Origin: an uncultured Acetobacteraceae bacterium
GTDB lineage: Bacteria > Pseudomonadota > Alphaproteobacteria > Acetobacterales > Acetobacteraceae
Length of the DNA: 32,234 bases
Direction of reading: 5' to 3'
Assembly (NCBI GenBank): GCA_903895595.1
Contig: CAITUP010000146.1
Location: 1-32,234, forward strand
Positions 6,812 through 26,230 of the stretch are shown in pieces. The first letter of the stretch is position 1, and each line of letters opens with the position of its first letter. The notes beneath the pieces were generated by a model. The model had not been told where the DNA came from and did not search any database. It was given only the letters and a program-made list of their open reading frames with translations. The position numbers were made by a program, and so were the translations under genes.

Positions 6812-7201
6812 TTAATCCTCTTGCCGAAAGGCATCGGAGATACGGCGCACGCGGCCTTGCGCGTCCACTAGCAGAATGTCGAAGCGTACCCCGGCGGCGC
6901 CCCAATCGGGATGGTCGGCCAACACGATGTCGCAGGCCGCCAGCAGCCGCGCCTGTTGATGTTGCGTCAGCGCGATGGCGGCTTCGGTGAGGGTGGGGCG
7001 GGCTTTGACCTCGACCAATGCCAGCAGGCCGTCTTTCTCCGCGGCGATGTCGATTTCGCCGGCTTTGGTGCGCAGGCGCTGGGCGAGCACGGTCCAGCCA
7101 TCGGCTTCCAGCGCTGCTCGGGCGGTGGCCTCGGCGCCCATGCCGCGGGCGTGGGCGATTTGGCCTCGGGTGCGGCGGTTGCCGGGGGTGGACGGTGTCA
7201 T
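6812..7201 (-). CDS. YraN family (UPF0102) nuclease-fold protein
   Basis: A 129-residue protein of the YraN/UPF0102 family. The sequence shows the family core: GxxAExxAxxxLexxGW near the N-terminus (GMGAEATARAALEADGW) and the PD-(D/E)xK-like motif GEIDIAA...LALVEVKAR, where D and the E-x-K lysine would form a nuclease-type site. Family members are close to Holliday-junction-resolvase-like endonucleases, but their cellular role is not settled. The start at 7201 gives the normal family length, although no good Shine-Dalgarno sequence precedes it. A longer frame to 7357 is not supported. It lies 61 nt downstream of the DNA methyltransferase gene on the same strand. Confidence 0.88.
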   Translation of the reverse strand: MTPSTPGNRRTRGQIAHARGMGAEATARAALEADGWTVLAQRLRTKAGEIDIAAEKDGLLALVEVKARPTLTEAAIALTQHQQARLLAACDIVLADHPDWGAAGVRFDILLVDAQGRVRRISDAFRQED

Positions 7202-7262
7202 CGGGGGAGGATGACAGGGAAAGGTTAAGGAACGGTTAACGGAGGCAAGCAAACAGCGCTTT

Positions 7263-8645
7263 TCAATCCCCGGCCGGCGCTGCCTCGGCTCGGGATATAT
7301 GGCGTTGCGCCTCGACTTCGCGTTGCGAACGCTTGAGGGCACCGCTCTTCCTGTCACGTCGTCCGATCGGTTTTTCGATCCCGAAATAAGCGGACGCTTC
7401 CGACATATCCATGCGGATCAAGGTGGGATCGCCAAGGGAAATCTTGCCCACCGTTCGCACCGGTTCGATACCCAGGGCCTTCATCAAAGCGCCAGCAACC
7501 GCACGCCCGAGCGGCGGGGGCACGGAATTGCCGATTTGGCGCGCGCCGTGCCATTTCGTGGTGTGAAAGCGGAACCAATCTGGGAACCCGTGCAGGCGCG
7601 CCATTTCCCGCACCGTCACGCAGCGCGGCAGCGCGTAATGTATGGGGCGTGGGCTGGTGAATGCCCCGCGCGCCGCATCCGTGCCGGCCCGTAAGGTATT
7701 GCTCAGGCCGGTGCCGCTTAATTTGAAAAAGCGGGAGATGGGCTCGACTTCCCCCGGCACGGTTGCCGCGAAACGGCGACGGGAGATGTCGGTGTGATCG
7801 GTCCGCGCGCTGGATGTCAGAACGGCCGGGTTCCATTCGCGAACATGCCCGAAATGCCACGCATCGTTCGCCAGGCACCGCATCTCGCGCGCATAGGCAC
7901 TCGGCTCCCGCCATTTTCCCGGTAGAACTTCGTCGGTCGTGAGCAAAGCGTCGAATCCATCGGCATCGGGAAGGTCGCCGAGCGCGTCCTCGCAGGTGGG
8001 ACCTTTGGGTTGCGGGCGCCAATCGTTGTCGGCCGGGCTGGTCGCCTTCGCCGGGTAAGCCGGCATCGGCAACCCCTTGCGGGCGCCATAGAGGAACAAA
8101 CGCTCCCGATGCTGCGGCGTGCCGTAATCGGCGGCGTCGAGGACCTGCCACGGCAACAGCACATTATAGCCGATTGCGTCGAAAGCGGCGATCAGCTCGT
8201 CCAGGAAGGCTCGATGGCTGCCGACGGTAAGGCCTTTGACATTCTCGAACACGAAATAGGACGCTTGCAGCTCGCCGACGATACGCACGAATTCCCGCAC
8301 CAATGAATTGCGCGGGTCGTCGAGGACGCGTTGTCCGATCAGCGAGAAACCTTGGCACGGTGCGCCGCCGAAGACGATATCGACCTGACGGTCCCCGATG
8401 CCGGCGGCTTCGCGGATTGCGGCGCCGGTCAGCCCGACCACCGAACGCGGCAGAACGGCACAGTCCGGGAAATTGAACTTGTGAACGGCGGCATGGATCG
8501 GATCGATCTCGACCGCACCCACGACATCGAAACCGGCTTGTTCGAACCCGAGGCTCAGCCCGCCCGCGCCGGCAAACAGATCGATCCCAATCGGTCGCAC
8601 GGCCATTCCTTCATGCAGCGGCGATGAGGCGCTGGGCTCCACCAT
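7263..8645 (-). CDS. dcm: DNA (cytosine-5-)-methyltransferase
   Basis: A 460-residue C5 DNA methyltransferase transferring methyl from S-adenosylmethionine to cytosine. The motifs are in order: I, IDLFAGAGGLSLGFEQAG (about 21-38); IV, GGAPCQGFS with catalytic C97; VI, FENVKG with E134; VIII, QHRERLFLYGA; IX, MARLHGFPDW; X, QIGNSVPPPLG. The target-recognition region lies between VIII and IX. About 70 charged residues follow motif X, an unusually long tail. Two starts are possible: ATG at 8645, overlapping the end of vsr by 35 nt, or ATG at 8606, 4 nt after the vsr stop but with AAGGA directly abutting it. The second still keeps motif I. The neighbouring vsr suggests an m5C mark made at a sequence where deamination repair is needed. 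No adjacent restriction enzyme is evident. Confidence 0.93.
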   Translation of the reverse strand: MVEPSASSPLHEGMAVRPIGIDLFAGAGGLSLGFEQAGFDVVGAVEIDPIHAAVHKFNFPDCAVLPRSVVGLTGAAIREAAGIGDRQVDIVFGGAPCQGFSLIGQRVLDDPRNSLVREFVRIVGELQASYFVFENVKGLTVGSHRAFLDELIAAFDAIGYNVLLPWQVLDAADYGTPQHRERLFLYGARKGLPMPAYPAKATSPADNDWRPQPKGPTCEDALGDLPDADGFDALLTTDEVLPGKWREPSAYAREMRCLANDAWHFGHVREWNPAVLTSSARTDHTDISRRRFAATVPGEVEPISRFFKLSGTGLSNTLRAGTDAARGAFTSPRPIHYALPRCVTVREMARLHGFPDWFRFHTTKWHGARQIGNSVPPPLGRAVAGALMKALGIEPVRTVGKISLGDPTLIRMDMSEASAYFGIEKPIGRRDRKSGALKRSQREVEAQRHISRAEAAPAGD

Positions 8646-9078
8646 CCAGGAACGCTACCATCTCGTCCGTGAGCGCGTCGAGCGTGCGGAGCTGACACTG
8701 CCAAACGGTCACTACCCCCCACCCCATCGCCCGCAGCTCGGCTTCCTTCGCGGCGTCGCGGGTTCGGTTGGCGTCCAGCTTCGGCGCCCAGTAGTCCAGT
8801 CGAGATTTCGGCGGTTGTCCGATCTTGCACCCGTGCGCATGCCAGAAGCAGCCATGGACAAAGATCGCCTTCCGGCGGCCGGGAAACACGATGTCCGGCT
8901 TGCCCGGCAGGTGCTTCGCATGCAGCCTGAAACGATACCCCAACCCATGCAACCGCCGCCGCACGATCTGCTCGGGTGTCGTGTTCTTGCCGCCGATGCG
9001 CGCCATGAGGGCGCTGCGGCTCTCTGCTGTGCGGTTGTCGGTCATGCGGACGCCTGCGACTCGGGATTTCGCTGCCAT
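8611..9078 (-). CDS. vsr: Very short patch repair endonuclease Vsr
   Basis: A 155-residue Vsr endonuclease, which nicks DNA beside T:G mismatches arising from deaminated 5-methylcytosine. Numbered from the ATG at 9078, the key residues sit at a constant +11 offset from the E. coli enzyme: catalytic D62, H75 and H80, and zinc ligands C77, H82, C84 and C128 (motifs [23 protein letters not shown] and TVWQCQL). All expected active-site and zinc residues are present, so it should be active. A second in-frame ATG (M12, MTDNRTAE) could be the true start. It is the first gene of a vsr-dcm unit, with the methyltransferase starting within or just after its 3' end. Confidence 0.95.
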
Positions 9079-10492: not shown

Positions 10493-10957
10493 ATGCGCTG
10501 CCCGTTCTGCGGCTCCGACGATACGCAGGTGAAGGATAGCCGTCCCACCGAGGACAACGGTGCCATCCGCCGCCGCCGTTTCTGCGGCAATTGCGGGCAG
10601 CGTTTCACGACCGTCGAGCGCGTGCAGCTGCGGGAGCTGACGGTGATCAAGACCGACGGCCGCCGGGTGCCGTTCGATCGCGACAAGCTGGCGCGCTCCA
10701 TCCGCGTATCGTTACGCAAACGCCCGATTCAGGAGGAACGGATCGAGCGGATCGTGAACTCCATCGTTCGCCAGTTGGAAGCCTCCGGCGACAGCGATGT
10801 GCCGAGCAAACAGATCGGGGAGCTGGTGATGGATACGCTGAAGGAACTGGACAAGGTGGCGTATGTTCGGTTCGCGAGCGTTTACCGGAATTTCCGGGAA
10901 GCGAAGGATTTCGAGGATTTCGTCGGTGGGTTGGGCGAGGGCGGGGTGTTGGAGTAG
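10493..10957 (+). CDS. nrdR: Transcriptional repressor NrdR
   Basis: A 154-residue NrdR, the nucleotide-sensing repressor of ribonucleotide reductase genes. The N-terminal zinc ribbon uses C3, C6, C31 and C34 ([17 protein letters not shown] and [13 protein letters not shown]). It is followed by the ATP-cone domain ([20 protein letters not shown] and [18 protein letters not shown]), which binds ATP or dATP and controls oligomerisation. It lies 6 nt after glyA and is surely co-transcribed with it. In many relatives ribD follows directly; here about 5.6 kb of other genes intervene. Confidence 0.96.
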
Positions 10958-11006
10958 GTGGGACCGTAACACCCGGTTTGCCATCCGCCCGCTCTCGCCG
11001 CCTCCC

Positions 11007-11037
11007 ACCCGTCATCCCCGCGCTTGTCTCGGAACCA
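11007..11037 (+). repeat. Dispersed intergenic repeat, diverged copy
   Basis: This 31-nt stretch begins ACCCGTCATCCC and ends AACCA. It closely resembles 32115-32145 at the other end of the window, with a few substitutions and a shifted G. Both copies are intergenic. It lies at the left edge of the accessory block that separates nrdR from ribD. Confidence 0.45.
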
Positions 11038-12557: not shown

Positions 12558-14090
12558 CCACCGACTGGCCGAAAACTGGCCGGAATGCGCCATGCCCTTG
12601 TGGCAGTGGCCGGAAATACAAGCATTGTTGTGGCAATTTTCCGGTAATCCGAGACCGCAATCGGCGTCGCCCGAGGTGATTCGAGCCCTCGAAGGACACT
12701 ATGCCAAGGAACGCATCCGGCAGGAGCAACAGGGTCTAGGTAAGCCGATCATCGCCGCACGATTCAACGATTATCAAATCGTCGCCGTTGGCAATACCGT
12801 ACATTGGTCTCCGAAGGCGAAGACGTTTCCCGACTTCCTAGGCGAATATATCAAACGCGTCCTAGGGTCGGATTGGGGCAACGCCGAAATCGCAAAACCG
12901 TTCGACGAGCGACATACGCTCTTGCAGTGGTATGACGGCTATTGCCGATACCAAGCTGCTACGATCAATATCCCAGGGGAAGTGAGTGGCGCAGTGATGA
13001 CGGGCGTCGTTGCCTGTTATCTTGGCACTGCCTACAGTCTCTACCTTCTCGATCACAATGTCGAACTACAGACCCGCCTTGTCCAGCGGCTAAAAAACCA
13101 GAAGGATTTTCAGGGCGCATATTATGAACTCATCGTCGCGAATGCACTAATCCGTGCAGGCTTTAAATTGACCTTGGAAGACGAGACAGATTCATCCACC
13201 AAGCACTGCGAATTTGCGGCTGTCTCGCAGCGCTCTGGGAAGAAATATTGTGTCGAGGCTAAAATGCGCGCGGTAATTGGCTTACTGGGTGCCGACGACA
13301 AAGATGGAACTAAGAAGTCCAATCCGCTATCACACATGATCAAGCACCTGAACGCCGCATTGGCAAAACCGGCGACGGACGACCGGCTGATATTTATTGA
13401 CCTGAACACCGACGCTACGCTCGGAGCCGACGGCAAACCCACATGGACGCATCACTCCTTCACACGGTTGGAGCGATTCGAACGCGACGAACTGGCCACC
13501 GACGTCGCGGCCTACGTGTTCATCTCGAACACACCCTTTCACAGGATGCTGAACGAACCGCAACACACCGCGCTTGCGGCATTTGGCTTGGGCATACCGG
13601 ATTTCAACCGACCCGGTACGGTCCGGTTGACCGATATATATCGGCAACGGCGGAAACACGCTGATGCTTTTCAGATCGCGGAGGCATTTATGAAATATCC
13701 TCAGCTTCGGACGACGTTCGATGGTAGTCTTCCTTGCGACAGCCACGCCCGATAATCGGAGAAACCTATTTGTTCGAAGGTGTGAGAAATTTGCCGATTC
13801 GCTAAGTGAGAATCTGCTTGCGACGGTAACAACCGCTTGCGTGTTGGAAGCGGAGAAGACCGCATATATCGGCGTCACCGATCAAAACGGCCGGTCGTAT
13901 ATTTTGGTTGAACCAATGACCGACCAACAAATCACCGATTACGAGGCTCACCCGGAGGCGTATTTTGGGATAATCTGGAAGGTCGGCAAAACTAGCAGCA
14001 ACAGATACGAGCTGTTCGCGTTCTTCATGGATTCGTCTACTGGTCTTAGCCGCACAACTCTGTTGGAGCGTTTAGCCACCCATCCGACCC
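12554..14090 (+). pseudogene. SEC-C motif gene split over three reading frames
   Basis: The N-terminus is at 12554-12679: [20 protein letters not shown] then KYKHCCG, a perfect SEC-C zinc-binding motif with four cysteines, running to TGA at 12677. From about 12660 the sequence continues in the -1 frame as [20 protein letters not shown] and stays open to TAA at 13753. Coding-like sequence then continues in other frames: [15 protein letters not shown] from about 13746, then SENLLATVTTACVLEAEKTA and YIGVTDQNG, fading by about 14090. The simplest reading is one ancestral gene of about 500 codons with two or three single-base frameshifts. Sequencing error, or slippage at the TTTT run at 12637-12640, is the alternative for the first shift. 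Base composition is visibly more AT-rich than the neighbours, suggesting transfer. Function is unknown. The right boundary is approximate. Confidence 0.55.
12592..13755 (+). CDS. Main open frame of the SEC-C protein (387 codons)
   Basis: This is the longest open segment of the SEC-C locus. Its first 22 or so residues are an out-of-frame reading of the zinc-motif DNA, so a real product would need a frameshift or another start. The remainder looks like a genuine soluble protein: [60 protein letters not shown] and [20 protein letters not shown] followed by AK. This last pair of segments (E in helix, C-E-F strand, then V-E-A-K) looks like a PD-(D/E)xK nuclease core with E-A-K as the last motif; that is inference from spacing. 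No close functional family was recognised beyond SEC-C association. Confidence 0.5.
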
Positions 14091-19912: not shown

Positions 19913-20388
19913 TGGTCGAGGCCCCGAAAACCCGCCCCCGCACCGCATCGCGGGTGGCGGCGGTTCAAGCGCTGTTTCAAAGCGAACAGGCCGGCGACAA
20001 CGCCGAGACTGTGATCGACCAGTTCGTTCGTCACCGCCTGGGCGATTTGGCCGGTTCGGACGGGTTCGAGGATGGGCGTATCCCCGACGCCGAGGTGCCG
20101 CTGTTCGCCGCCATCGTCCGTGGCGCGGTGCGCCAGCAGGATACGATCGATGCGATGCTGAGCGATGCGCTGCCGGCCGATTGGCCTCTGGCACGCATCG
20201 ATCCGGTGCTGCGCGCGCTCCTGCGCTGCGCGGGCGGGGAGCTGGCGGGGGCGAGTGCCGCCCCGGCGAAGGTGATCATCAACGAATATCTGGATGTGGT
20301 CCGGGGGTTCCTGACGGGGCCGGAGCCGGGGATCGCGAACGCGGTGCTGGACCGGTTGGCGCGGTTGTTGAGGGTTGGGGAATTCTGA
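19912..20388 (+). CDS. nusB: Transcription antitermination factor NusB
   Basis: A 158-residue NusB, an all-helical RNA-binding factor that joins NusE (S10) on boxA RNA for rRNA antitermination. RTASRVAAVQALFQSEQAGD is the conserved N-terminal arginine-rich helix. The C-terminal half has WPLARIDPVLRALLRCAGGE and the INEYLDVVRGF...GIANAVLDRLAR signature. The internal loop (residues 48-60) is longer than in E. coli, as usual in this class. ribH-nusB coupling is standard in Alphaproteobacteria. Here the thiL gene that often follows is replaced by an HNH endonuclease gene overlapping the last 14 nt. Confidence 0.95.
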   Translation: MVEAPKTRPRTASRVAAVQALFQSEQAGDNAETVIDQFVRHRLGDLAGSDGFEDGRIPDAEVPLFAAIVRGAVRQQDTIDAMLSDALPADWPLARIDPVLRALLRCAGGELAGASAAPAKVIINEYLDVVRGFLTGPEPGIANAVLDRLARLLRVGEF

Positions 20389-21508
20389 GGGGGGAGCTAC
20401 TCTGTCTTTCGCGGCATTCCACCGGTATCTGAGCCACGATTTTCGCTCGGCCAGAACGGGACGGCCGCTCGGGGCGGATGCGGCTGTCGATTACCGGTCC
20501 CGATTGCGGCGGCTGGAACAGGCATTGGGAACGCCCCTTGAAAATGCCCCTGCGATGCTGTTGCGTACGCTGGCATCGACACTGAAGAACGATCCGCGCG
20601 TTGTCGGGATAACGTCCACCAAATTTATCGGCGATGTCGGTGTTGCGCTTCGCGCCTATGCCGGTTTCCTTGATAGTTGGCACGGCGAAGAAGCGCTGCG
20701 TTTGCTTCCCGCGCGCATCCTGGTTGCCGAGTTGGCCGCTTTGGGTTTCAGCCATACCCAGGCCCCGGGCCAGATATTCGTGCGGATGCAGCGGCAGGAG
20801 ATTGTGCTTTACGTCGCTAACGGATCGGTTGTGGTGCATCCGGCGTTCGAGGCACGCTATGACATACTTGCCGATGGTCAGGCGCCCATGCGCTTTTGCC
20901 ATCATGCCGAGTTGCGGGAATTCCCCGAACAGGACACGGGTGACGGACCGGTGCATTACGGCATTCGGTTCGGTTTTGTCGCGATCGAGCCGCTCCGTTG
21001 GTTTATCGAAAAACTACAGGTGTCCATGGAATTCGCCAGTCCGGCCAATCCCGAGAATACGATCGGGGACGACTTACGGAATACCGAAACCGAAACATCT
21101 GTCCTGGCCAAAGCGCGAATCGGCCAGGGCCGGTTCAGGACAGACCTTTTGCATTACTGGCAAGGGCGCTGTGCCGTAACCGGCGTCGATAATCCGGCGC
21201 TGCTGCGCGCGTCGCATATCAAACCATGGAGCGTCAGCACGGACACCGAACGATTGGATCCATTCAACGGACTGCTGCTCGCGGTTCATTTGGATGCTCT
21301 GTTCGACCGGGCCTTCATCACGTTTCAGGACGGTGGTGAGATGCATATCTCTCGCCGGTTGAACGAACGGGAAAAGACCGTCTTCGGTCTTGCGGAACCA
21401 GCGGGAAAATTACTGCTCGCGGTGCCGCACCTTGAATATATGCGGCACCATCGCAGTCGGTTCGATGCGGACGAATTTGGTTCTTATACCAACCGAACTA
21501 ACCATTGA
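20375..21508 (+). CDS. HNH endonuclease
   Basis: A protein of up to 377 residues whose C-terminal part (about residues 260-340) is an HNH_2-type nuclease domain: LLHYWQGRCAVTGVDNPALL, then RASHIKPWSVS, then DPFNGLLLAVHLDALFDRAF. These supply the H of ASHIKPW, the N of FNGLLL and the H of VHLD. The N-terminal 250 residues have no recognised domain; they may recognise modified or specific DNA. The start is unclear. The frame opens with TTG at 20375 inside nusB, while the best Shine-Dalgarno-like sequence (GGGGGGAG, 20389-20396) points to a CTG at 20402; the first in-frame ATG is far inside. Base composition is lower in GC than nusB. It is probably a defence-type nuclease acquired behind the rib operon. 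The role is inference. Confidence 0.8.
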   Translation: MGNSEGGATLSFAAFHRYLSHDFRSARTGRPLGADAAVDYRSRLRRLEQALGTPLENAPAMLLRTLASTLKNDPRVVGITSTKFIGDVGVALRAYAGFLDSWHGEEALRLLPARILVAELAALGFSHTQAPGQIFVRMQRQEIVLYVANGSVVVHPAFEARYDILADGQAPMRFCHHAELREFPEQDTGDGPVHYGIRFGFVAIEPLRWFIEKLQVSMEFASPANPENTIGDDLRNTETETSVLAKARIGQGRFRTDLLHYWQGRCAVTGVDNPALLRASHIKPWSVSTDTERLDPFNGLLLAVHLDALFDRAFITFQDGGEMHISRRLNEREKTVFGLAEPAGKLLLAVPHLEYMRHHRSRFDADEFGSYTNRTNH

Positions 21509-22564: not shown

Positions 22565-23515
22565 TTATCGCCCGACGCGAAACCGTTCGACTGCCGTCAC
22601 CAGTGCCCGCCTGATACCCGTCTCCAACGCCGAGTGCCCAGCGTCCGGCACCACCGTCAGCCGCGCTTTCGGCCAAGCGTCCACCAGATCGAACGCGGTT
22701 TTCGCCGGACAGACCATGTCGTACCGCCCTTGCACGATTTCCGCGGGAATATGCGCGATCCGAGGCATGCCGCCCAGCAGGCCCTCGGGCGGCAGAAACA
22801 GATTATGGACGAAGTAGTGGGCTTCGATCCGAGCCAACCCCAAAGCGGTGCGATCCTGAGCGAAGGCGGCGACGGTGTCGGGGCTGGGCAGCAGCGTGCT
22901 GCACGTGCCCTCGTACACCGACCATTCCCGCGCGGCGGGCAGATGGACGGCGGGATCCGGGTTCGTGAGTCGGCGCATATAGGCGCCCAGGATATCGTCC
23001 CGTTCAGCCGCCGGAATGTGCCCGACGAACGCGGCGTGCGCTTCGGGGAACACGAGGCCCATGCCGTTCAGGAACCAATCGACCTCCGACTGGCGGCCCA
23101 GAAAGATGCCGCGCAGAACGCAGCCGGACACGCGGTCGGGATACGCCTGCGCATAGGCCAGCGCGAGCGTGGAACCCCAGGACCCGCCGAACAGCAGAAA
23201 CCGCTCCACGCCGAGGTGGCGGCGGAGTTGTTCGATGTCCTCCACCAAATGCGGTGTGGAATTGTCCGCCAAGCCGCCCAAGGGCCGAGACCGCCCGGCA
23301 CCGCGCTGGTCGTAGATGATGACCCGCCAGAACGTGGGGTCGAAGAAACGCCGATGCACCGGGCCGGCGCCGGCGCCCGGGCCGCCGTGCAGAAACAGCA
23401 CAGGGCGGCCGCGCGGGTTGCCCGACTGCTCCCAGTACATCACATGGCGTTCGGACAGCGGCAGGTAGCCGGTCTCGTAAGGGCCGATATCGGGAAACAG
23501 ATCACCACGGGGCAT
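22565..23515 (-). CDS. pip: Proline iminopeptidase
   Basis: A 316-residue alpha/beta-hydrolase that removes N-terminal proline from peptides. The oxyanion motif is HGGPGAGAG (about 43-51), followed by DQRGAGRSRP, nucleophile S112 in FGGSWGSTLALAYA, the acid in VQGRYDMVCP and the histidine in DAGHSAL, all complete. The ATG at 23515 begins the conserved MPRGDLFPDI start. No Shine-Dalgarno sequence is present; TTGCCC-16-TATACC lies just upstream, placing the transcription start at the ATG, so the mRNA is probably leaderless. The first 18 codons and the promoter are duplicated at 25778-25870 across an inserted restriction-modification-like unit, yet the gene itself is intact. ltnD follows 14 nt after the stop. 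Confidence 0.95.
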   Translation of the reverse strand: MPRGDLFPDIGPYETGYLPLSERHVMYWEQSGNPRGRPVLFLHGGPGAGAGPVHRRFFDPTFWRVIIYDQRGAGRSRPLGGLADNSTPHLVEDIEQLRRHLGVERFLLFGGSWGSTLALAYAQAYPDRVSGCVLRGIFLGRQSEVDWFLNGMGLVFPEAHAAFVGHIPAAERDDILGAYMRRLTNPDPAVHLPAAREWSVYEGTCSTLLPSPDTVAAFAQDRTALGLARIEAHYFVHNLFLPPEGLLGGMPRIAHIPAEIVQGRYDMVCPAKTAFDLVDAWPKARLTVVPDAGHSALETGIRRALVTAVERFRVGR

Positions 23516-23554
23516 GCGGAATGGTATAGGCACACCGACGGCCGGGGCAAAGGG
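23462..23554. repeat. 93-bp direct repeat, left copy
   Basis: This copy is identical to 25778-25870 except at one position (C at 23539, T at 25855). It spans codons 1-18 of the proline iminopeptidase gene, the start codon and 39 nt of upstream DNA including the -10 and -35 boxes. Sequence identity ends abruptly on both sides. It marks the left edge of the inserted unit. Confidence 0.97.
23523..23550 (-). promoter_or_regulatory. Probable leaderless promoter of pip
   Basis: On the - strand, TTGCCC (23550-23545), a 16-bp spacer and TATACC (23528-23523) lie 7 nt before the pip ATG at 23515, so transcription should begin at or beside the start codon. The whole promoter falls within the 93-bp repeat. 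Confidence 0.5.
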
Positions 23555-23643
23555 GCAGCGTACTTTAAGGAGTTGGATGCGGTGAGGCTTGTCACCCGCT
23601 CGGGAAACATGCAGCATCCGTGCAACCGGAAGTTGGAGTGACC

Positions 23644-24528
23644 ATGCCTGCCAAGGACGTGATACCGGCATACGACGCACTCATTCGACGGGCGTCCTCG
23701 CCGGGCCGGAGAGATCTGAAAGGTATCGACATCGAAGATAAGTTGATCGCAGTGATAGCGAGCAGCAGGTTGTTTTTGGAAAGCCTGATCCGGGCACCAT
23801 TGGTCTCGAAGATCGTCGGCAAGGAATATTTTATGTTTGTCGGAAATGACGGGAAAAAGACGTCAAGAGCTGTCAACAGCGCACTGTATCTCGATACCTT
23901 TGACGCCGGTCAGCTCCGTTGTGCCCTGTCCTGCCAAACGGATGGCCTTGGTTCGGAAGTGCTCACCAAAATCGTGTACACCGCTGCGATATCCTATTGC
24001 TGCGCTGCCGATCTATTAAAGCAGGGCGATCAGAAAACACCCGGTACATTTTTTGAGGTTTTGATTGGGCACATCGTCGCGGTTGCGTTAGACGTAAACC
24101 CTGAGCAACAAATTCGCGTGCCGACGCTGGATATGGATATCACCATACCAACCGATTACGTCTTCGATCTAGGCCCCCTTAAGAATCGCATTCATCTGCC
24201 GATCAAAATATCGACACGGGAGCGTGTGGTACAGGTATGGGCGCATCAGCGCGTGTTGGACGGCATGCACGGCGTGGCCCGTTTCAAGGGTATTCTTATC
24301 GCGATGGCCGAGACAAACAAACAGAAAGAAACATCGGTTGTCGAGGTATGTCTGCCCAATCAGTGGATCGCATACCAAATGTATATCGCGCAGATGTTCC
24401 GCGTCTACTATTTGGATTTGCCGCAACAATACCTCCGCTTGAAGGATCGATATCCGTTCATTCAAGTGAAGCCGTTTGGCGATTTTTACGAGGAGATAGC
24501 GAAGATAGAGGGGAACGATGTACTCTGA
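23644..24528 (+). CDS. Candidate type II restriction endonuclease, unclassified
   Basis: A 294-residue soluble protein of no family I can name. Its position, paired tail-to-tail with a C5 methyltransferase inside a small mobile unit, makes a restriction endonuclease the best guess. A possible PD-(D/E)xK-like core is visible: E138 in a helix (GTFFEVLIGHIVAVA), then IPTDYVFDLG with D171 and D175, and K188 in HLPIKISTRERVVQV. The residue two before the lysine is P rather than E or D, so the acidic ligand would have to come from E138, a displaced arrangement known in this superfamily. The start at 23644 has GGAG 7 nt upstream. The stop TGA directly abuts the methyltransferase stop. Lower GC than its surroundings suggests transfer. 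The assignment is inference from context. Confidence 0.6.
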   Translation: MPAKDVIPAYDALIRRASSPGRRDLKGIDIEDKLIAVIASSRLFLESLIRAPLVSKIVGKEYFMFVGNDGKKTSRAVNSALYLDTFDAGQLRCALSCQTDGLGSEVLTKIVYTAAISYCCAADLLKQGDQKTPGTFFEVLIGHIVAVALDVNPEQQIRVPTLDMDITIPTDYVFDLGPLKNRIHLPIKISTRERVVQVWAHQRVLDGMHGVARFKGILIAMAETNKQKETSVVEVCLPNQWIAYQMYIAQMFRVYYLDLPQQYLRLKDRYPFIQVKPFGDFYEEIAKIEGNDVL

Positions 24529-25674
24529 TTATTCCGCAGCCGACAGTTCCAAATGCGGCTGTTTAGCACGTCTGAACGGTTGCCAGCCGGCGTCCTTTCC
24601 CGCTGTCTCAAGTACTTTTTTCACTGCCATTCCCACCGCTTTTCCGAGAGGTGGCGGTACAGCATTGCCAATTTGCAGGCGAACGTCATAACGCGTGCCG
24701 TAGAACCGAAAACTATCCGGAAACCCCTGGAGCCTCGCTCCTTCGCGCAGGGTTAACGACCTGTGCTGCTCGGGATGACCGTAACGCCCTCGCGTGAAAG
24801 AATCGAAACCAGCTGTTATCGTCGGGCATTGTCCATCCCACTCCAGACGCCCATAAACGTCAGGCCATCCGCCTTTCGACGAATCGACCTCATTATGGCA
24901 GCTTAGTCGTAAATTTACTGGAATATCAACCCATCCACCTCCCGGTGGCACATGGCGAAACCGTTCCTCGTTGAGAGGGGTGATGCGGCATTTGATATGA
25001 TTGGCAAACCGGACATGCTCGCTAAAGTCGTCTGGCGGCGGCGGCAGATCGCCGATGACATCCCTGATCGTAACATTGTTCCGGGATACTTCGATCTTCG
25101 GCGCTACGTTGGATACATCGCGGCGGATACCGATCATAATAAAGCGGTCTCGCTGCTGTGCCAGACCGAAACTCGCGGAATTCACGAAATACCGATGGAC
25201 ATGATAATCGTCCAACGCCTCCTCCAGTTCGTCCAGCAATCGAACGCCTCTCTTCTGGCCGAAGATTTTTACATTTTCGAACATGAACGCGCGCGGACGA
25301 ATTTCGGAGACAAGGCGAGCGTATTCCAAAACCAAACTGTTTCGTTCATCTGCCGCCAGATGCGCACCTCGTTTTTGTTTGGAAAAGCCCTGGCAGGGCG
25401 GCCCCCCGCTCAATATGTCGACCGATGTCACGCCCAATCTGCTTAGAAGGCTCCGCCCCTCCAGCGTCCGCACATCGGCCACTTCCGCGTGCGGTGCTAT
25501 GTTTCGGTTGTACGTTTCCACGGCCCAAGGGTCGATGTCGCAGGCGTAAATGACGTCCAATCCAGCCTGTCGCAAGCCCAAGGAAAGGCCACCGGCGCCG
25601 GCGAACATCTCGATGCAGGTCAACCGATTCGCAGTGGCTGGAATTTTTGTGATCATGGAGCACAGCAAAGCCAT
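24529..25674 (-). CDS. DNA (cytosine-5-)-methyltransferase
   Basis: A 381-residue C5 DNA methyltransferase with all motifs: I, CIEMFAGAGGLSLGLRQAG (about 20-38); IV, GGPPCQGFS with C94; VI, MFENVK with E133 (followed by IFG instead of the usual G); VIII, LAQQRDRFIMIG; IX, REGARLQGFPD; X, QIGNAVPPPLG. The recognition region lies around 215-300. It should protect the host from the convergent candidate nuclease. Starts at 25674 or 25656 (MITKIPATAN) are possible; neither has a clear Shine-Dalgarno sequence. A copy of the pip promoter lies 165-192 nt upstream and reads toward it. It is clearly distinct from the Dcm at 7263-8645 (different N-terminus, no long C-terminal tail). Confidence 0.94.
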   Translation of the reverse strand: MALLCSMITKIPATANRLTCIEMFAGAGGLSLGLRQAGLDVIYACDIDPWAVETYNRNIAPHAEVADVRTLEGRSLLSRLGVTSVDILSGGPPCQGFSKQKRGAHLAADERNSLVLEYARLVSEIRPRAFMFENVKIFGQKRGVRLLDELEEALDDYHVHRYFVNSASFGLAQQRDRFIMIGIRRDVSNVAPKIEVSRNNVTIRDVIGDLPPPPDDFSEHVRFANHIKCRITPLNEERFRHVPPGGGWVDIPVNLRLSCHNEVDSSKGGWPDVYGRLEWDGQCPTITAGFDSFTRGRYGHPEQHRSLTLREGARLQGFPDSFRFYGTRYDVRLQIGNAVPPPLGKAVGMAVKKVLETAGKDAGWQPFRRAKQPHLELSAAE

Positions 25675-25774
25675 AGACGCATAACATGGTCAAGACCCAC
25701 GAACAAAAAAGCAACCTACGCCGGTATGTTGGCTTTACGCCCAGGATGCATGCCAGCTATTCGCGCCGTCAAAT

Positions 25775-25831
25775 CTACAGGTAGCCGGTCTCGTAAGGGC
25801 CGATATCGGGAAACAGATCACCACGGGGCAT
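25775..25831 (-). pseudogene. Duplicated 18-codon 5' fragment of pip
   Basis: The right-hand repeat copy keeps the pip ATG and its first 18 codons (MPRGDLFPDIGPYETGYL); the next triplet, just across the junction, is the stop TAG. The fragment can make only an 18-residue peptide. It shows which copy is the relic: the intact gene is at 22565-23515. Confidence 0.9.
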
Positions 25832-25870
25832 GCGGAATGGTATAGGCACACCGATGGCCGGGGCAAAGGG
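25778..25870. repeat. 93-bp direct repeat, right copy
   Basis: This is the right copy of the repeat at 23462-23554 (92 of 93 positions identical). It lies directly before the DUF423 gene and supplies its native upstream sequence. Confidence 0.97.
25839..25866 (-). promoter_or_regulatory. Duplicated pip promoter facing the methyltransferase
   Basis: The TTGCCC-16-TATACC promoter is exactly repeated here and reads leftward through the 18-codon relic toward the methyltransferase start 165 nt away. The single substitution between copies falls in the spacer. It may therefore help drive the methyltransferase; this is inference. Confidence 0.4.
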
Positions 25871-25876
25871 ATAGGT

Positions 25877-26230
25877 ATGGGGCGGTTGTGGTTTGGGTTG
25901 GGCGCGCTGACGGGACTCGGTGCCGTCGCGATGGCGGCGTTCACCGCGCATGGGTTGGAGCCGGCATCGCAGCGCATGGCCGGCAGCGCGGTGCAGATGG
26001 AGGGCTGGCACGCCTTGGCGCTGCTCGCCACCGGCTTATGGGCGCCGCGCGGCGGCCGCTGGGCCGATGCCGCCGGCTTCGCCTTCACCGCCGGAATCGT
26101 GCTGTTCTGCGGCGCGGTCTTCACCCTCGCTTTGACAGGCCGGTCCGCGGGCGGGGTCGCCCCGGCCGGCGGCACGCTGCTAATGATCGGCTGGGCCTTG
26201 CTGGCCGTGTCCGCGTGGCGGGCCCGATGA
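25877..26230 (+). CDS. DUF423 family membrane protein
   Basis: A 117-residue protein of the DUF423 (YgdD-like) family with four predicted transmembrane segments: GLGALTGLGAVAMAAFTAHG, WHALALLATGLWA, AGFAFTAGIVLFCGAVFTLA and AGGTLLMIGWALLAVSA. The AFxAHGL and GW/HALxLL patterns are diagnostic. It sits in the inner membrane; function is unknown. Its stop overlaps the start of the rRNA-methyltransferase-like gene by 4 nt (ATGA), an arrangement also seen in gammaproteobacteria, where DUF423 genes neighbour rlmM. Its upstream DNA is the right repeat copy, so the insertion left its promoter region unchanged. Confidence 0.9.
   Translation: MGRLWFGLGALTGLGAVAMAAFTAHGLEPASQRMAGSAVQMEGWHALALLATGLWAPRGGRWADAAGFAFTAGIVLFCGAVFTLALTGRSAGGVAPAGGTLLMIGWALLAVSAWRAR

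Follow-up and report, generated by a model that had tools for sequence, protein, structure and literature searches.

How restriction-modification (R-M) systems enter chromosomes without a recombinase is a long-standing question. As summarized in PMC3031569 (citing Nobusato 2000 and Furuta 2010), genome comparison suggested that R-M systems of all types can duplicate their target on insertion, over long stretches of variable length, and the size of these duplications at R-M insertions is given as about 100 bp in PMC3874152, from the same two works; a comparison of Helicobacter pylori genomes for R-M insertion is described in PMC1643837 (citing Nobusato 2000). For one such system, HpyAII, loss and regain through 80-bp flanking repeats are related in PMC7494987 (citing Aras 2001).

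The window analysed here, a stretch of 32,234 nt from an uncultured Acetobacteraceae bacterium (contig CAITUP010000146.1), contains a pair of R-M genes related to Kpn2I, enclosed by two 93-bp direct repeats between pip and a DUF423 gene. It shares with the insertions described in those accounts the presence of R-M genes alone between direct repeats of about 100 bp, with one copy of the repeated sequence in relatives; it differs from them, as far as they are summarized there, in the alphaproteobacterial host, in the Kpn2I-like pair and in the site, a 45-nt gap between divergent genes. In keeping with such a host, the top plasmid-borne matches listed for this genome's GroEL come from Bosea, Azospirillum and Bradyrhizobium, at about 77%. 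Similarly, HpyAII as related in PMC7494987 is a Type II system between direct repeats of comparable length, loss and return being reported for HpyAII only. Since long target duplications have been described for all R-M types, the locus is a new example of a known insertion pattern, and the original prediction, which considered the pattern mainly a Helicobacter one, overstated its restriction. A full-text literature search returned no paper joining target duplication, restriction-modification and Alphaproteobacteria, which is not proof of absence. The reading favoured here, with a probability of roughly 0.7, is that the pair, foreign by composition, was inserted between pip and DUF423 by illegitimate, break-repair-like integration, and was kept because the neighbouring genes were left unharmed. 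The locus is a clean and recent case, with an intact unit, a single mismatch in 93 bp and empty sites sequenced in congeners.

The direct repeats and the ancestral site

The same 93-bp sequence occurs twice in direct orientation, at window positions 23462-23554 and 25778-25870, with 92 of 93 bases in agreement and a single mismatch, a C at 23539 against a T at 25855 (E about 1e-41 when the window is compared to itself by BLAST). A 652-kb sample of the genome, composed of the window and 40 other stretches, contained six pairs of direct repeats that reach 35 bp and 90% identity and are separated by less than 12 kb. The 93-bp pair, at 98.9%, is the most similar of them; next come a pair of 44 bp (97.7%) and one of 175 bp (94.3%). 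The inserted DNA spans 2,223 bp (23555-25777), and its G+C content is 0.53, whereas that of the genome sample is 0.64.

Two main open reading frames (ORFs) occupy the insert. The restriction endonuclease gene (R) extends from an ATG at 23644 to 24528 on the forward strand, with an alternative GTG start at 23620, and the C5 cytosine methyltransferase gene (M) occupies 24529-25674 on the reverse strand, so that the two converge tail to tail with abutting stop codons, ending at 24528 and 24529. The other ORFs of at least 60 amino acids (aa) overlap R and M in different frames. The main ORFs of the insert include no mobility gene, according to the ORF list, family-library scans having covered R and M only, and none of the 23 inverted-repeat pairs listed by the repeat scan places an arm at each insert end.

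The left repeat contains the start codon of pip, which encodes a prolyl aminopeptidase (22565-23515, reverse strand; start placed by comparison to relatives) and is open throughout, together with 39 nt upstream. The right repeat contains a pip 5' fragment (25775-25831, reverse strand), which reads MPRGDLFPDIGPYETGYL and is closed by a stop codon, 25775-25777, immediately outside the repeat. Next to it lies the DUF423 gene (25877-26230, forward strand), also open throughout. The 45-nt region separating the start codons of pip and DUF423 (25832-25876) is whole at the right copy only, where the 45 nt upstream of DUF423 are made up of repeat sequence and of the next six bases. With the pip start and 39 nt in the left repeat, and all 45 nt on the right side, neither gene has lost its start, and the shared region is preserved almost completely for pip and completely for DUF423. 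A consensus promoter scan gave no match at the gap; conserved columns in the relatives, together with base counting, indicate that both genes probably retain their control region.

The site was then compared to its counterparts in related genomes. The 5' region of pip was located in 58 of the 98 genomes searched, the bacterium's own included, and 29 loci out of the 57 other genomes were examined. A single match to the 93-bp stretch was found in all 29 (48-96 aligned columns; about 1.5 kb considered on each side). DUF423 was recognized beside pip in 17 of them, with head-to-head starts 43-58 bp apart in 14; the remaining three gaps measure 129, 156 and 797 bp. When the flanks of the window are joined, a pip-DUF423 gap of 45 bp results, which aligns to the relatives over its whole length.

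Given the single-copy site of the relatives, the locus is best explained by an insertion that duplicated 93 bp of its target, and the 92/93 identity of the two copies, compared with 78-91% between species across the aligned part, marks the insertion as recent. Comparison of sequences thus establishes a one-copy ancestor and a recent insertion with duplication, which brought in DNA of foreign composition, with both genes open and no mobility gene among the main ORFs. The original prediction had given the repeats with exact coordinates and identity; it had also recognized the intact pip at the left copy, the fragment closed at the junction on the right, and an insert holding only a candidate endonuclease and a C5 methyltransferase, without recombinase or terminal inverted repeats, all of which agrees with the ORF list and the repeat scan. 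Its proposal of an insertion with long target duplication is borne out by the one-copy ancestral site, and its expectation of a single copy and a 45-nt gap in relatives lacking the unit by the 29 single matches and by the prevailing gap size. The claim that neither neighbour lost coding or promoter DNA stands for the starts of both genes and for the region upstream of DUF423; for pip it needs a small correction, the left copy keeping 39 of the 45 upstream nt rather than all of them.

Mis-joining during assembly could also have produced such a repeat, and the genome is indeed a draft, in 170 contigs. The copies differ by one base, however, the contig that contains the two of them is 32 kb long, and the sequence beyond either flank follows that of the relatives; an assembly artefact is accordingly hardly credible.

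The 797-bp gap mentioned above belongs to a locus of another genus; it holds other DNA, with no repeat, where a crcB-like gene can be read by eye.

The endonuclease, its partner and their relatives

The product of R, originally listed as a candidate endonuclease, is a relative of Kpn2I within the CCGG family, as judged from sequence, predicted fold and conserved residues. It matches the Kpn2I sequence (PDB 6ekr) with E 4e-28. The predicted model, with a predicted local distance difference test (pLDDT) score of 91, retrieves the same structure by fold with E 5.2e-17 and a template modelling (TM) score of 0.75, followed by PspGI with E 1.4e-4. Residues D171, K188, R192-E193-R194 and Q202 are invariant across 24 aligned sequences. 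Active sites of the CCGG family follow the order PD...K...D/E, in permuted form, with a glutamine in Kpn2I, according to PMC6344858. The endonuclease shows the order D...K, a glutamine as in Kpn2I, and R-E-R after the lysine. Q202 and R-E-R presumably play the roles of their CCGG-family counterparts. Fold and invariant residues are common to the two enzymes; their identity is 27% in the fold alignment, and a CCGG-core cleavage site is a prediction only. M, the partner gene, encodes a C5 methyltransferase by Pfam match (E 2e-62), and neither R nor M is interrupted or lacks its conserved residues.

The ratio of observed to expected TCCGGA sites is 0.56 in this genome, against 1.07 in relatives and 0.69, from 6 sites only, in G017, the congener described below. 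As a sign of cleavage at a CCGG core, this depletion is only suggestive. CCGG was considered separately as the point where a break could have started: the repeat contains CCGG twice (23469 and 23542), in neither case at an end, and CCGG occurs 11.9 times per kb, so that this candidate is not supported.

In a collection holding one genome per species, the endonuclease was found in 2 of 193 genomes, 32 of the 193 being congeners: the genome under study and G017. The G017 unit (L033:9068-11391) is located at a different site, where it splits a gene read by eye as coding for a two-domain VOC protein. Three loci from two genomes (L038 and L047 of G019, L039 of G020) have the corresponding empty site, and alignment to them shows an exactly blunt insertion that neither removed nor added a base of the target; no long repeat flanks the unit. 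The two units show DNA homology over window positions 23716-25622, and weakly up to 25730, and have no shared ends.

That one insertion is blunt and that the two units have different ends speaks against both an integrase and a transposase. A DNA transposase making an unusually long staggered cut would leave a target duplication, such as the one present; no inverted-repeat pair, however, is found at the insert ends, and the insert's main ORFs include no transposase. With a G017 unit that has other ends and no duplication, this explanation is very unlikely.

Related pairs also occur on small plasmids and on a virus-labelled contig. Kpn2I-like genes are carried by small plasmids of Escherichia coli and Klebsiella, with the same kind of C5 partner and the same convergent layout; in comparison to these pairs, M is 62% identical and the layout is alike, whereas R is 30-31% identical, and those pairs sit on replicating plasmids. 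A closer pair (R 73%, M about 77%) is located on a virus-labelled contig, adjoining a Vsr gene according to reading by eye. Phage records gave no match to the unit, at either protein or DNA level. Further copies were sought in two other phyla, where 2 of 387 and 2 of 296 genomes were positive, own genome included, the second extra match being very weak.

Flanking repeats across the endonuclease family

The original prediction proposed that genomes be searched for further occurrences of the unit, flanked by different long duplications. Relatives of the endonuclease are encoded in 31 loci of a public genome collection, that of G017 included, as retrieved by a search limited by the peptide patterns used. 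By motif, 24 of these contain a convergent downstream methyltransferase, of C5 type in 13 and of DPPY type in 11; in two (L068, L069) a C5 gene lies on the other side, and in five no partner was recognized. Across this set (L050-L080), the convergent layout is thus mostly kept, with a partner of either the C5 or the DPPY type.

When repeats straddling the endonuclease were searched in the 31 loci and the window, E values below 1e-5 were obtained, besides the window, for L063 and L065 only. Scoring was carried out on 27 of the 32 loci, L054, L062, L064, L078 and L080 being left out because no partner gene was recognized, and on the additional L177 and L179, for a total of 29 units; unit ends are approximate for L059 and L060, and a few flanks are short, e.g. 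in L058. Long flanking repeats were detected in 3 of the 29 units (the window, L063 and L065), against 8 of 1,028 sham positions (p 0.003); the sham positions overlap, and four of the eight sham matches fall within a single stretch, L146. Two loci outside this test, L178 and L082 (the latter identical in sequence to L069), show no repeat. The three repeat-flanked units come from different phyla and, by motif, include either methyltransferase type.

The repeat in L063 is 40 bp long, with 37 of 40 positions identical, and corresponds to the 3' end of the neighbouring gene. An empty site was not found, DNA of the flanking gene matching 1 of 59 genomes, L063's own. In L065, 96 of 135 aligned bases agree between left and right copy, while the left copy agrees with L086 at 102 of 117; the right copy is not clearly derived from the left one, and may be either an old duplication or the remnant of a paralogue. 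Lengths may thus vary, with 93 bp in the window, a plausible 40 bp in L063, an ambiguous case in L065 and no duplication in G017, and among the units tested only the duplication of the window is secure. Another long duplication is consequently plausible in L063 and ambiguous in L065, and the blunt G017 unit is a counter-example.

Integrase islands are typically bounded by repeats that restore the end of a gene. The L063 repeat, being a gene 3' end, could be seen in this light, and the 93 bp in the 5' end of pip would then be attL and attR of an integrase provided in trans. A second copy of the site, however, is present in none of the 29 loci of relatives, the G017 copy is blunt and at a different site, and no integrase is encoded by the main ORFs of the insert, the rest of the genome not having been searched for integrases. 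Such an origin is very remote. It is also distinctly improbable that R-M units of the Kpn2I family enter chromosomes with long target duplications in a cargo-specific manner, possibly set off by the nuclease they encode, instead of being passive fragments maintained by selection.

Mode of integration and other features

In the favoured reading, a Kpn2I-like Type II R-M pair would have entered the lineage after its split from the sampled congeners. One end would have joined the chromosome after 23554 and the other 93 bp back, at 23462, and the comparison with relatives shows that these 93 bp are now present twice. The joining itself may have been illegitimate recombination, or the repair of a break by a fragment provided with neither a site nor an enzyme of its own, the two ends being caught 93 bp apart; the product would have survived because both neighbours stayed whole. 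Duplication would be favoured since a deletion, or many of the blunt insertions, in the shared 45-nt gap would deprive one of the neighbours of its start or of its control region. Loss of the methyltransferase of an R-M system exposes the cell to cutting, and in this way the pair would then hold itself in place. The 93-bp repeat would also permit its later loss by homologous recombination and its return from another strain, as reported for HpyAII.

The 29 one-copy loci out of 29, the patchy distribution of the unit, its relatives on plasmids and on a virus-labelled contig, and the varying outcomes of insertion all support this reading. Together with the blunt unit located elsewhere in a sister species, the locus suggests that long duplications may be seen because such insertions outlast selection, and not because special machinery makes them.

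A number of points weigh on the other side. The locus is known from the assembly alone, and the integration step itself is one that we infer. No donor was found: among 144 relatives, the end stretches of the insert had a single match, of 25 bp, which lies at the beginning of R. The G017 insertion, being blunt, fits variable repair but shows that the unit does not always duplicate its target. The family-wide enrichment of flanking repeats is weak; it drops to p 0.03 without the window and to 0.2 without the window and L065, and its score cut-off, 34, is L063's own score, fixed after the data had been seen. Finally, TCCGGA ranks only 12th of 64 palindromes by depletion, and CCCGGG behaves alike.

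The observed structure would also result, exactly, from a Campbell-type integration, in which a circle carrying one 93-bp copy, for example popped out of another strain's chromosome, recombined by homology with the single site. The single mismatch is compatible with two origins of the copies, and HpyAII is reported in PMC7494987 to be lost and restored via its 80-bp repeats. Yet the endonuclease is present in no sampled congener but G017, where it occupies another site, and since the circle requires a donor already carrying the duplication, the first event is left unexplained. This route is therefore an unlikely origin of the locus; the two processes are not exclusive, and recombination of this kind could possibly account for the later spread of an older insertion.

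A further repeat was noted elsewhere in this genome, in L128 (G000 contig 105), where the 3' end of groEL and the DNA that follows it, 175 bp in all, are repeated at 7067-7241 and 10846-11020 with 94% identity, enclosing a gene pair that is macA/macB-like by eye. Searches for the corresponding loci of relatives gave noisy tblastx matches only, and groEL is multi-copy in many congeners; the repeat is either a second insertion with long duplication or the remnant of a groEL paralogue.

Elsewhere in the window, a second C5 methyltransferase gene (7263-8645, reverse strand; Pfam DNA_methylase, 4e-63) lies 15 kb from the inserted unit, with a Vsr-like repair gene, identified by eye, on its upstream side (about 8600-9000, reverse strand). 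A HNH_2 endonuclease gene with a DUF2002 match (20375-21508, forward strand) is found about 1 kb off the far end of pip; its third-position G+C is low (0.63), and it is possibly another defence gene. A 387-aa ORF (12592-13755, forward strand), for which Pfam gave no match at E 0.001, has a similarly low third-position G+C (0.61) and is possibly foreign.

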